A stretch of 64,000 nucleotides of DNA, from assembly GCF_000472865.1 (NCBI RefSeq), contig NZ_AXAP01000004.1:124001-188000 (forward strand). Direction: 5' to 3'. Positions 9,098-23,859 of the stretch are shown here, piece by piece. Numbering within the stretch: position 1 is the first letter of the stretch; every line of letters starts with the position of its first letter. Both the position numbers and the translations under genes were made by a program. The notes under the pieces are model-generated. The model made no database searches, was not told the DNA's origin, and saw nothing but the letters and a program-made list of their open reading frames with translations. Origin of the DNA: Bradyrhizobium elkanii WSM2783. GTDB lineage: Bacteria; Pseudomonadota; Alphaproteobacteria; Rhizobiales; Xanthobacteraceae.

Positions 9098-9583
9098 TCA
9101 AAACTCAGCATGCCCCTGCGGGTCGAGCAGGCGATTGAATCGCTGCGCCGCCGCGATCGCAAAGCGCACCGTCATCAGCTTGCGGGTCGGCGCCGGCAGC
9201 CGATGCTCCGGCGCCTCGCAATGCATGTGCGCGCCATAGGCATCCGCAATGATCAGGCCGGTGTCAGTAGGAAAGATCTCGCACGGCAGATCCTGCGTGA
9301 AGGCAAAGAACAGGCGGTCGCAATGGAGGCGATAGTCCTGCCATTTCTGGTCGGCGCGCAAGTCCTCCACCGACGACTTGATCTCGACGATCCAGATCTC
9401 GCCGCGCTCGTTCAGCGCCACGAGATCGGCACGCCGGCCCGACGGCAGCGGCAATTCGCTGATGCAGGAGAACCCGAGCGAGCGCAACAGTCGCGCCGTG
9501 CCGCGCGCGATCGCAAGCGCCGTCTCCGACTGGCGACGGTCCGGCGGCGGAACAAGGGCGATGTTGCGGGCGGACGATTCCAT
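9098..9583 (-). CDS. mmcB: MmcB-like PD-(D/E)XK DNA repair protein
   Basis: A 161-residue protein resembling MmcB, a predicted endonuclease-fold DNA repair factor of alphaproteobacteria. The nuclease-fold signature is visible as SGRRADLVALNERGEIWIVE followed by IKSS (about 47-70), giving the D...ExK arrangement, then a QKWQDY helix. In Caulobacter the homologue belongs to the damage response. I see no LexA site (GTTC-N7-GTTC) upstream. The start ATG 9583 lacks a strong ribosome binding site. The gene is not in an operon. Confidence 0.8.
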   Translation of the reverse strand: MESSARNIALVPPPDRRQSETALAIARGTARLLRSLGFSCISELPLPSGRRADLVALNERGEIWIVEIKSSVEDLRADQKWQDYRLHCDRLFFAFTQDLPCEIFPTDTGLIIADAYGAHMHCEAPEHRLPAPTRKLMTVRFAIAAAQRFNRLLDPQGHAEF

Positions 9584-21335: not shown

Positions 21336-22208
21336 ATGTACACGCTCATGGGAGTCACGGGAAAGGTCGGCGGCGCCACAGCCCGCGCGCTGCTCGCGGA
21401 GGGCAAGCGGCCGCGCGTCATCGTGCGGGATCGCGCCAAGGGCGAGAGCTGGGCCGCACAGGGATGCGAGATCGCGATCGCCGATCTCGGCGATGCCAAT
21501 GCGCTGGGCCGCGCCTTCGAGGGCGCGGAAGCCGCGTTTGTGATGCTGCCGCCGCTGTTCGATCCCTCGCCTGATTGGCGCGAAGCTAAAGCGATGATCG
21601 CTACGTTGCGCGCGGCGCTGACACGCGGCGCGCCCAAACGCGTGGTGGCGCTCTCGACGATCGGCGCCGATGCCGAGCGGCCGAACCTGCTCAGCCAACT
21701 CGGCCTGCTCGAGCGCGCGCTCTCGACGATCGCCATGCCGGTGGCTTTCCTTCGCGCCGCCTGGTTCATGGAGAACGCGGCATTCGATCTCGCCTCAGCC
21801 CGGGATCGCGGCGTCATCACAAGCTATCTGCAACCGCTCGATCGCGCGGTGCCGATGATCGCCACCGCTGACATCGGCAACACCATCGCCGATCTCTTGC
21901 AGCAGCAGTGGAGCGACACCCGCATCGTCGAACTCGAGGCCGCCGAGCGCGTCAGCCCCGCGGCCATCGCTGCGGCGTTCTCAAAGGCGCTCGGCAAGCC
22001 GGTTCGGGCCGAGGCAGTGCCGCGCGAACAATGGGAAACGATCTTTCGCGAGCAGGGCATGCGCAATCCGCTGCCGAGAATGCAGATGATCGACGGCTTC
22101 AACGAGGGTTGGATCGACTTTGCGGATAAAGGCGCCAATGCCCGCAAAGGCGCGGTGTCGATCGACTCCGTGATCGCCGCGCTCGTGAAGGGCAATACTT
22201 CGGCATGA
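21336..22208 (+). CDS. NmrA-family NAD(P)-binding protein
   Basis: A 290-residue Rossmann-fold protein of the atypical SDR/NmrA group. The N-terminal loop reads GVTGKVGGATARALL (about 6-20), the shortened cofactor motif of this group, followed by VIVRDRAKGESW, which often selects NADP. It lacks the Tyr-x3-Lys pair of classical SDRs, so it may sense redox cofactor or reduce a quinone. ATG 21336 is preceded by AAAGGAGAGAGAC. Confidence 0.84.
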   Translation: MYTLMGVTGKVGGATARALLAEGKRPRVIVRDRAKGESWAAQGCEIAIADLGDANALGRAFEGAEAAFVMLPPLFDPSPDWREAKAMIATLRAALTRGAPKRVVALSTIGADAERPNLLSQLGLLERALSTIAMPVAFLRAAWFMENAAFDLASARDRGVITSYLQPLDRAVPMIATADIGNTIADLLQQQWSDTRIVELEAAERVSPAAIAAAFSKALGKPVRAEAVPREQWETIFREQGMRNPLPRMQMIDGFNEGWIDFADKGANARKGAVSIDSVIAALVKGNTSA

Positions 22209-22214
22209 GCTGCC

Positions 22215-22292
22215 CGTCATTGCGAGCGCAGCGAAGCAATCCATGCTTCCGCAGGTGGTTGCTGTGGATTGCTTCGCTGCGCTCGCAACGAC
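22215..22292. repeat. Inverted repeat CGTCATTGCGAGCGCAGCG...
   Basis: CGTCATTGCGAGCGCAGCGAAGCAATCCA on the left pairs almost perfectly with TGGATTGCTTCGCTGCGCTCGCAACGACA on the right, leaving a short loop. It starts seven bases after the NmrA-like stop codon. It is the first of several repeat elements that fill the space to 23016. Confidence 0.8.
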
Positions 22293-22322
22293 AATGTGGA
22301 CACAATGGGTGCGACAAATCAA

Positions 22323-22400
22323 CCCGACGGGCAAATCAGTGGAAATGTGTCCATCCCTCTCGCGAAAAATAAATCGCTTAACCCGTCGGGCAAATCAGTG
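22323..22400. repeat. Direct repeat of CCCG(A/T)CGGGCAAATCAGTG
   Basis: Two 19-base copies at 22323-22341 and 22382-22400 differ at one base, which keeps the CCCGWCGGG palindrome. The spacing is 59 bases. They lie at the left border of the structured element that follows. Confidence 0.7.
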
Positions 22401-22439
22401 ATTTAACTCCGCGCGTCTCACCCAAGAGAGGGGCGGGTC

Positions 22440-22800
22440 GCGATCGTCACGAACGTTGCGGTGAGATGCGGTGGACGTGATGGATGTGACTGACGAGCAC
22501 ACGCATCACGGACGGCGAAGTCGTGTGGTCCTGGCGCCCCGACGCTGGCGCTAAGCTTCTATGAAGTGACGGTGGCAAAAGAGCCCGGTCACCGGGGAGA
22601 GCACGAAGGAAACCGTAACACCATCGCGCAGGGAGAGCCGGAATGCTTCGGTTGAACCTGTGGTCCTACCCCCGTGCTTTTTGTTGCACGGGACCCATGG
22701 GTGCAACCAGCACCCGGCTTTCCCTGCGCCCTCTGCTGATTGAGAGGGTGGAAAGTGAAGCAAACCTCGGGCGCAACGCGTCGCGAGAACGCGACCTCAC
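22440..22800 (+). repeat. Structured dispersed element with four nested stems
   Basis: No gene is supportable here. The right part folds strongly: a 15-bp outer stem CGCAGGGAGAGCCGG (22627-22641) with CCGGCTTTCCCTGCG (22714-22728) containing one G-U pair, an inner stem CCCGTGC/GCACGGG (22671-22692), a hairpin GGGTGC-AACCA-GCACCC (22699-22715, sharing two bases with the outer stem), and CCCTCT/AGAGGG (22729-22748). From memory, segments such as GGGGAGAGCACGAAG, GACCCATGGGTGCA and CAAACCTCGGGCG recur in Bradyrhizobium intergenic regions with varied bases but kept pairing, so I read it as a repeat family, possibly transcribed. Confidence 0.6.
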
Positions 22801-22844
22801 ATCCTCACGCTGTTTGAAATTTGAATCATAAGTCACGACGACGC

Positions 22845-22934
22845 CGTAGGGTGGGCAAAGCGAAGCGTGCCCACCATCCCGAGCACGGCGCTGGATGGTG
22901 GGCACGGCGCAAGTGCGCCTTTGCCCACCCTACG
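22845..22934. repeat. Copy 2 of the palindromic CGTAGGGTGGGC repeat
   Basis: It has the same ends and inner CCCACCAT/ATGGTGGG arms as the copy at 17742-17830, with a variable centre (GAGCACGGCGC against GCGGGCGGAATGCT). The outer arms CGTAGGGTGGGCAAAG and CTTTGCCCACCCTACG are conserved. Confidence 0.85.
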
Positions 22935-22975
22935 CCTCTGCAACCGCTTAGTCGCGCCACAACAACATCTGTGGT

Positions 22976-23003
22976 TATGGGTCCCCGCCTTCGCGGGGAC
23001 GAC
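22976..23003. repeat. Single REP-like palindrome
   Basis: TATGGGTCCCCGC-CTTC-GCGGGGACGAC is the same half-element as 2561-2589 with a different stem composition. It lies 13 bases beyond the stop of the next gene, a minus-strand dehydrogenase, and could end its transcript. Confidence 0.75.
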
Positions 23004-23016
23004 ACCGGCGCTAGAT

Positions 23017-23859
23017 CTATCCCCCGCCCTGATCAAACGCCTTGCGGAGCGCGACGTAGCCCTGCTGCTGCTGGGTCCAGTTGCGGCCGCCGGTGATGGC
23101 GCCGTCGATGACGAGGTCGTGGCCGTTGATGAAGGAGGATTCGTCGCTGGCGAGGAACACGGCGGCGTGCGCGATGTCATCGGGCAGGCCGGCGCGCGGG
23201 ATCGGCTGGGCGGTCTTGTAGACCTCGCGCATCACGGCCGGCGTCTTCTCCGCGGCGTCAGTCGACAATCCCAACGCCTTGCCGAAGATGCCGGTCGCGA
23301 TCGCGCCGGGCGAGATCGAGTTGACGCGGATGCCGGACTCGCCGAGCTCCATCGCCACGCATTTGGTCAGATGGATCACCGCGGCCTTTGCCGCGCCATA
23401 GACCACCGAGGACGAAAAGCCGGCAAGCCGTCCCGCGATGCTGCCATTGTTGATGATGCTGCCGGAGCCCTGCTTCTTCATGTGCGGCGCGACATGCTTC
23501 ATGCCGAGCATGACGCTGCGCACCAAGGTTGCCATCGCGGCATCGAAACGGTCGACCTCCAATCCCTCGATGCCGCCGGTCTGCGCCGGGCCGCCGGCAT
23601 TGTTGAAGAGGCAGTCGACCTTACCGAATTTTTCCAGCGTCAGCGCGATCAGCGCCTTCATCTGCTCTTCCACGGTGACGTCGGTCTGGCGGAAGATGCA
23701 GTTGGCGCCAAGCGCCTTGGCCAAGGCTTCGCCTTCGGCGACGCGCCGCCCGGCGATGACAACCTTCGCACCCTCGGCGACGAAAACCTCCGCCGTGCGC
23801 AGGCCGATGCCGCTCGTGGCGCCCGTGATCACCGCGACCTTGCCGTCCAAGCGTCCCAT
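23017..23859 (-). CDS. Short-chain dehydrogenase/reductase
   Basis: A 280-residue classical SDR. The cofactor loop TGATSGIGLRTAE (about 13-25), LFNNAGG, catalytic Ser in IINNGSIAG, and the Tyr/Lys pair in VVYGAAKAAV are all visible, and the C-terminal INGHDLVIDGAI matches the family. It probably oxidises a secondary alcohol or reduces a ketone with NAD(P). The last 20 residues (QQQQGYVALRKAF) extend past the usual end. ATG 23859 follows AAGAGGGTATTGAC. Confidence 0.88.
   Translation of the reverse strand: MGRLDGKVAVITGATSGIGLRTAEVFVAEGAKVVIAGRRVAEGEALAKALGANCIFRQTDVTVEEQMKALIALTLEKFGKVDCLFNNAGGPAQTGGIEGLEVDRFDAAMATLVRSVMLGMKHVAPHMKKQGSGSIINNGSIAGRLAGFSSSVVYGAAKAAVIHLTKCVAMELGESGIRVNSISPGAIATGIFGKALGLSTDAAEKTPAVMREVYKTAQPIPRAGLPDDIAHAAVFLASDESSFINGHDLVIDGAITGGRNWTQQQQGYVALRKAFDQGGG

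Follow-up and report, generated by a model that had tools for sequence, protein, structure and literature searches.

A dispersed, covarying element of Bradyrhizobium elkanii WSM2783 is a likely member of a multicopy family of large structured non-coding RNA genes

A conserved unit at about 22345-22827 (+ strand) of a 64,000-nucleotide stretch of the Bradyrhizobium elkanii WSM2783 genome (the window, to whose positions all coordinates refer) is probably a member of a multicopy family of genes that encode a large structured non-coding RNA of ~400-550 nt. The family belongs to the Bradyrhizobium group, is new to the sources searched and is probably transcribed; we infer the transcription and function of its RNA, including a structural role, from sequence. 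Each copy would be, or derive from, a separate transcription unit, with a putative sigma70-type promoter directly before helix 1 in most wider relatives, and the + strand folds into a 5′ hairpin domain, a central multibranch domain and a 3′ domain built on a long stem, after which come small hairpins and a tail. We propose that the RNA has a structural role in trans, either by itself or together with a protein, and that it probably dimerises through a palindromic apical loop; its copies would spread and be homogenised at the DNA level by duplication and gene conversion.

Extent and architecture of the element

The limits of the unit were set by homology among the element copies of the genome of the window (hereafter own copies), which extends from ~22345 to ~22827 and thus beyond the 22440-22800 of the initial annotation. 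By the list of open reading frames and a rough gene caller, the element lies between an upstream gene ending at 22208 and a downstream gene on the opposite strand (23017-23859). No open reading frame of 80 or more amino acids overlaps 22335-22820, and a coding repeat was rejected on this ground. Palindromic repeats flank the element at 22214-22294, 22836-22940 and 22975-23005. In the second of these, at 22849-22930 and beyond the limits of the unit, naRNA4 matches weakly, at 27.7 bits for a cut-off of 59.5.

All parts of the unit were assigned to the + strand. Directly 5′ of the RNA lies a leader block that is conserved among own copies (22345-22411); within it falls the place that the promoter takes in relatives, degenerate in the window copy (..GGGCAAATCAGTGATTTAACTCC). 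Helix 1 (22414-22421/22461-22468) and its apical domain (22414-22468) follow, with 95.0% of cells paired over 35 copies and with covariation, and are capped by a strongly conserved loop, TCGCGATCGTCACG (22438-22451), whose palindromic CGCG at 22439-22442 is the proposed self-pairing (dimer) site. The central multibranch domain (22470-22625) is closed by the pairs 22470-22474/22621-22625, and its helices 3, 4, 6, 7 and 9 are paired in 97-100% of cells. Two hairpins in this region are hypervariable, one with helix 5 (22482-22488/22498-22504; hairpin 22478-22508), whose loop letters are conserved and which takes 29 forms in 30 own copies, and one with helix 8 (22555-22567), which ranges from 12 to 32 nt among own copies and takes 23 forms in 30.

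The 3′ domain (22626-22729) consists of a long stem enclosing two inner hairpins, and is paired with double changes in 37 copies. The stem, initially annotated as 15 bp, joins 22626-22641 to 22714-22729 (16 nt, 94% complementary), and the shorter complementary segments named alongside it were likewise found in place: CCCGTGC/GCACGGG at 22671-22677/22686-22692, GGGTGC/GCACCC at 22699-22704/22710-22715, and CCCTCT/AGAGGG at 22729-22734/22743-22748. The last of these, a hairpin with a variable loop (22729-22748), was read from the sequence and stands outside the 90 pairs of the consensus described below. The final hairpin (22766-22773/22779-22787; whole 22766-22787) is paired in 95.0% of cells over 35 copies. 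The unit ends with a conserved tail, CTGTTTGAAATTTGAATC (22810-22827), shared by many own copies and by copies of other genera; its strict motif occurs in 22 of 63 promoter-bearing copies.

Fold, covariation and strand

The + strand of 22412-22800 folds at -191.4 kcal/mol, where shuffled sequences average -153.2 (z -6.5; none of 100 folds as well), and the opposite strand reaches z -5.2. Together with a 90-pair structure kept among copies, this energy bears out the proposal that the interval looks like a folded RNA. The consensus, of 90 pairs in 13 helices with 38 pairs changed on both sides, was obtained from alignment A2, whose 35 rows are 6 own copies and 29 taken elsewhere in the genus (it excludes L085-L087 and the diverged group L077-L084, which belongs to the same genus; another alignment, A1, comprises 35 of 43 rows). 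In A2, 96.0% of 3120 cells are paired, double-change cells number 252 as against 89.4±9.6 after shuffling, 0 of 500 shuffles reach any of five covariation measures, and control structures slid along the alignment pair in 38-47%, figures that are biased in favour of the structure by its derivation from the same alignment. That paired bases vary together had been suggested in the initial annotation, which named compensatory change among copies as a test beforehand; such changes proved to be many in three alignments, of 35, 37 and 30 copies.

In an alignment of 37 chosen copies, A3 (16 rows from the genus, L085 from another family and 20 rows from other genera of the family), the long stem of the 3′ domain is paired in 98.8% of cells and the GGGTGC/GCACCC hairpin in 98.6%, with many double changes, and the first inner hairpin, CCCGTGC/GCACGGG, in only 70.9%. 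Double-change cells amount to 91 versus 36.9±4.5 shuffled, and two of the five measures are matched by 12 and 3 of 500 shuffles. The segment GGGTGC is claimed twice, by the GCACCC hairpin and by helix 11 of A2, which pairs most of it with ACCTGT; one of these pairings may be wrong, or the two may alternate. Among the 30 aligned own copies, 98.3% of cells are paired and double-change cells reach 126 versus 49.7±7.3 shuffled; two of the five measures are not clearly above shuffles there (both-side-changed pairs, 13 vs 10.7; pair types, 45 vs 47.5). Helix 1 covaries among 176 distinct sequences.

Four pairs of the A2 structure are G-U on the + strand in 31-34 of the 35 copies, and since such near-fixed pairs would be A-C mismatches on the other strand, we take the + strand to be that of the RNA. 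The alignment consensus energy is -243.7 on the + strand versus -207.5 on the other, and strong matches to R1, a covariance model of the 3′ domain, typically score 100-180 bits, as against 30-51 bits for their opposite-strand mirrors.

In all 206 distinct stretches recovered, the four letters that precede ATCGTCA (or GTCGTCA) in the apical loop form a palindrome (CGCG 192, GGCC 12, GCGC 1, GTAC 1), a count made by a motif search that requires the neighbouring letters to be intact. That these four letters stay self-complementary when they change suggests that two molecules pair here; as there are only four kinds of palindrome, the independent changes behind this idea are few.

Copy number and distribution

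Segments of the element had been likened to an abundant Bradyrhizobium intergenic repeat, and this description holds: the element is present in dozens of copies and genus-wide, and no predicted gene runs across its middle in any of 100 loci (L085, L086 and L090 show small predicted overlaps at the edge). A count of fewer than a few copies per genome had been named as speaking against it; the genome of the window contains at least 48 at an R1 E-value of 1.3e-14 or better. With 150 of 5592 candidates scored there, R1 gave at least 98 matches, most of those beyond the 48 being weak opposite-strand mirrors, and BLAST, with 40 of 85 candidates scored, gave at least 41 matches at 40 or more places, 81-100% identical. 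From 40 own loci, 31 were retained with both ends, of which 30 were aligned.

Two single-contig genomes of the genus carry 54 (G274) and 21 (G252) strong R1 matches, and in a sample of 60 genomes of the genus, that of the window included, 56 have a BLAST match. Copies are few in other genomes. Within the family, R1 finds the element in 57 of 149 genomes and in 19 of the 47 genera sampled, 12 of the 57 genomes showing a single match (18 candidates scored per genome, strict filters); across the order, 12 of 297 genomes match by R1 and 10 of 297 by BLAST; and across the class, R2, a model built from A3, finds 3 of 385. An exact pattern search yielded 114 stretches in named genomes. Named matches fall in Bradyrhizobium, Afipia, Rhodopseudomonas, Nitrobacter and Tardiphaga, the others being metagenome bins labelled Hyphomicrobiales, Rhizobiales, Xanthobacteraceae, Bradyrhizobiaceae, Alphaproteobacteria or bacterium. 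One genome of another family (G817) has two strong copies, L143 and L146, on the small contigs C208 and C245, which reflect either contamination or transfer.

Three queries matched no plasmid record, an absence that says little because a control query, another repeat of the window, matched none either. No phage record matched the window copy, the sole query used for these. The loop motif was seen in three viral contigs, two of which carry it within 2 kb of a contig end.

A putative promoter at the 5′ edge in wider relatives

In a set of 89 copies, family-wide and from named genomes (some Bradyrhizobium included), 64 score at least 9 of 12 for TTGACA-N16-18-TATATT and 30 are perfect, and in most of the 89 the motif lies 36-39 nt before the loop. 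Among letter-shuffled stretches of all three sets scored, 23 of 775 reach 9 or more, the best scoring 10. The genus set has 14 of 34 copies at 8 or more, versus 163 of 775 shuffled stretches, and the 32 own copies score 5-7, below shuffled (2 of 157 copies had too short an upstream stretch to be counted). A consensus scan of the window copy found neither a promoter nor, on the + strand, a terminator. Transcription from a promoter of the element's own is thus well supported by sequence in the wider relatives, and may or may not hold for the window copy.

In 63 copies picked by promoter score, the majority base has a frequency of 0.27-0.46 upstream of the -35 (0.63 at the last base) and 0.94-1.00 over TTGAC; the high values over the hexamer follow from the choice of copies, and the drop before it does not. 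In 13 chosen pairs of copies, the promoter hexamers are 0.88 and 0.99 identical (partly by construction, the hexamers having been picked by score), with 0.41 in the middle of the spacer, 0.57 over the five bases 5′ of the -10 box and 0.24 over the 60 nt upstream. An alternative promoter-like block, TATCCCCG..CCAAACCTCTCTTAT, takes the position of TTGACA..TATATT in some Afipia and Rhodopseudomonas copies (L150, L187, L209, L099, L190, L222 and others).

Core and variable hairpins among the copies of one genome

In a tree of 149 copies (8 of 157 having been dropped), the 32 own copies group as a single clade, and in other genomes with at least two copies the nearest neighbour lies in the same genome for 35 of 70. 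Among own copies, mean pairwise difference is 0.008-0.068 in the core blocks, 0.38 in helix 5 and 0.50 in helix 8. The variable hairpins keep their pairing: helix 5 pairs are retained in 91.4% of cells, and every own form of helix 8 folds as a hairpin, the weakest at -0.6 kcal/mol. We sorted the forms of helices 5 and 8 into classes, and all eight combinations of these classes occur, which speaks for recombination between copies.

Two further genomes, each contributing 18 copies, show a weaker contrast than the own copies: helix 8 still varies strongly (0.51 and 0.39), helix 5 differs by 0.29 and 0.24, and most core blocks differ by 0.06-0.17; both sets mix subfamilies aligned to one profile. 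In G274, the 5′ block of helix 1 (0.416) and the upstream block (0.278) both exceed helix 5 (0.241), which counts against the picture of an invariant core. A second subfamily, whose longer helix 8 contains a CCAACCGG-like loop (L275, L277, L278, L279, L280, L283, L294 and L298), coexists with the first in two genomes. Own copies carry at least three different 5′ modules immediately before the element, at about 22290-22345 and its equivalents, and several 3′ modules are found downstream, an arrangement that looks like cassette exchange.

We put forward only tentatively, as a rather doubtful idea, that these hypervariable, pair-keeping hairpins mark the copies of a self-dimerising structural RNA encoded by a recombining gene family, with selection or a dedicated process keeping the hairpins different. 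If so, they may set the dimer partners, the protein bound or the copies that recombine.

Genomic context, dispersal and alternative explanations

Flanking sequence matched between copies in 152 pairs (at least 250 nt on the same side, some being duplicate records of one place), from which 14 pairs, each sharing one flank or more, were chosen, as were the 13 pairs of the promoter comparison. In all 14, helix 1 and its loop are 0.76-0.99 identical, above the upstream stretch at 0.43-0.75. The body is 0.83-0.91 identical in 5 pairs and 0.54-0.70 in the other 9, two of these being more alike in the downstream stretch than in the body. L093 and L199 are 0.99 identical over the helix 1 region and 0.86 over the body, with 0.47 and 0.59 beside the element. 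Vertical descent with selection would best explain these identities, and the element is probably kept by selection; modules may also have been swapped, or elements may have reached one place independently, because nine bodies are only 0.54-0.70 identical and two fall below their downstream stretch.

The initial annotation had offered either a transcribed element or a mobile nonautonomous repeat. The former is favoured by the sigma70-type promoters at a near-fixed place in relatives, the edge of conservation at the -35 and the G-U pairs of the + strand, and the latter, in the form of a DNA transposon, was not upheld. The ends were compared in 22 copies, those of the 63 promoter-scored copies that have the tail motif. 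Between their first and last 45 nt the mean longest match was 5.23, versus 5.18 shuffled, hence no terminal inverted repeats, and target-site duplications of at least 6 nt were seen in 3 of 22 versus 5.0 of 22 shuffled, a count that duplications beyond the assumed ends would escape. A MITE or other non-autonomous DNA transposon was rejected for lack of both features.

A broader version of mobility, in which the fold serves its own spread, SINE-like or through an unidentified enzyme, with no gain to the host, is the strongest alternative, and we judge it unlikely. Dispersal itself is real, given that the own copies form one clade and that at 12 loci, spread over 11 other genomes, the downstream gene has an 84-87% identical orthologue and the element is lacking within 1.5 kb; a clean empty site was not found among these comparisons, the upstream gene giving only weak matches elsewhere. 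The high and variable copy number, with 54 and 21 strong copies in the two single-contig genomes, and the intergenic locations fit such an element as well. Against it stand the missing terminal repeats and target duplications, the missing plasmid and phage matches (the control repeat being absent from plasmids too), the loss of the upstream promoter that copying through the element's own transcript would entail, and the pair L077/L082, which is 0.91-0.95 identical inside the element, 0.75 in the upstream stretch and 0.59 downstream.

A repeat acting as DNA (a REP- or BIME-like mosaic, or a nucleoid or supercoiling site) with hairpins that serve as cruciforms or mRNA 3′ ends would suit a location among the palindromic repeats 22214-22294 and 22836-22940, the swapped neighbouring modules of own copies, and the 26 of 85 loci in which the element follows a same-strand gene and faces an opposing one. 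We hold it to be very improbable: the four orientations to both neighbours occur 26, 17, 20 and 22 times in 85 loci, which is little preference, the multidomain fold far exceeds that of a REP, and both the G-U strand asymmetry and the near-fixed promoter place in relatives speak against it. Still less credible is a cis-acting, riboswitch-like leader of the next gene, which the same-strand downstream gene in 39 of the 85 loci with both neighbours called would allow and which was rejected for its mixed orientation, the next gene being opposed in 46 of 85 and no protein family standing beside more than 6 of 100 loci in an all-against-all comparison.

The copies also showed some orientation relative to replication, with 39 of 54 copies co-directional in G274 versus 133 of 250 predicted genes (Fisher p 0.015) and 12-14 of 21 in G252, where the excess is not clearly repeated; origin and terminus were guessed from 20 GC-skew samples per genome, and the observation is not used as an argument.

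Comparison with known systems

No Rfam family reaches its cut-off at the element, either in the window at gathering thresholds or in 22300-22960 at E up to 10, and none matches the element in L091, L092 or L107 at E up to 0.5. A known Rfam family was rejected, the only matches within 22345-22827 being sub-threshold microRNAs (best E 0.024), taken as chance. L107 carries a cobalamin riboswitch elsewhere, at 9194-9397 (126.5 bits).

HEARO or OMEGA RNAs of IscB-type elements are dispersed structured RNAs whose associated ORF is often absent. The element resembles them in being a dispersed structured RNA and differs in that it has no Rfam match; in the all-against-all comparison of neighbours, no protein family was seen beside more than 6 of 100 loci. 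With REP/BIME repeats and MITEs it shares a dispersed, intergenic and hairpin-rich nature; unlike them, it combines a lack of terminal inverted repeats and target duplications with a fold of 400-550 nt and a promoter in relatives.

Br-REP1 and Br-REP2 are intergenic repeats of Bradyrhizobium japonicum, from the same bacterial group as the element. The consulted part of PMC5082802 describes them as short palindromes of ~20-40 nt, with reads over some of the repeats, and states that Br-REP2 belongs to a larger element, for which it shows no data. Both were rejected, since the Br-REP1 consensus and a 20-nt part of the Br-REP2 consensus have 0 matches in the window with up to 3 mismatches; for Br-REP2 the rejection covers this 20-nt part. 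The consulted part of PMC2864571 names a Rhizobiales-1 motif and gives no Rfam number for it. Among open-licence papers, at the level of titles and the beginnings of abstracts, no description of the element was found.

The closest likeness in kind is to the large ornate RNAs OLE, ROOL and GOLLD, which form homo-oligomers with kissing loops among their contacts, ROOL and GOLLD being encoded in phages and prophages (PMC12286853, consulted in part). Like them, the element is large, multidomain, non-coding and supported by covariation, and its palindromic loop, here a hint from sequence, recalls their kissing loops. Unlike them, it has no Rfam match to any of the three, and it differs from ROOL and GOLLD, as far as the consulted part of that source describes them, in being chromosomal, with up to dozens of dispersed copies. 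The element resembles the large ornate RNAs in kind, and by the defining sequence tests it matches none of the named families tried. If transcribed, it would represent a large structured RNA present in many copies and unmatched by any Rfam 15 family, in a host family that includes root-nodule symbionts and nitrifiers. It makes testable how tens of RNA copies stay alike in their core while differing in individual hairpins, and whether dimers are the general working form of large ornate RNAs.
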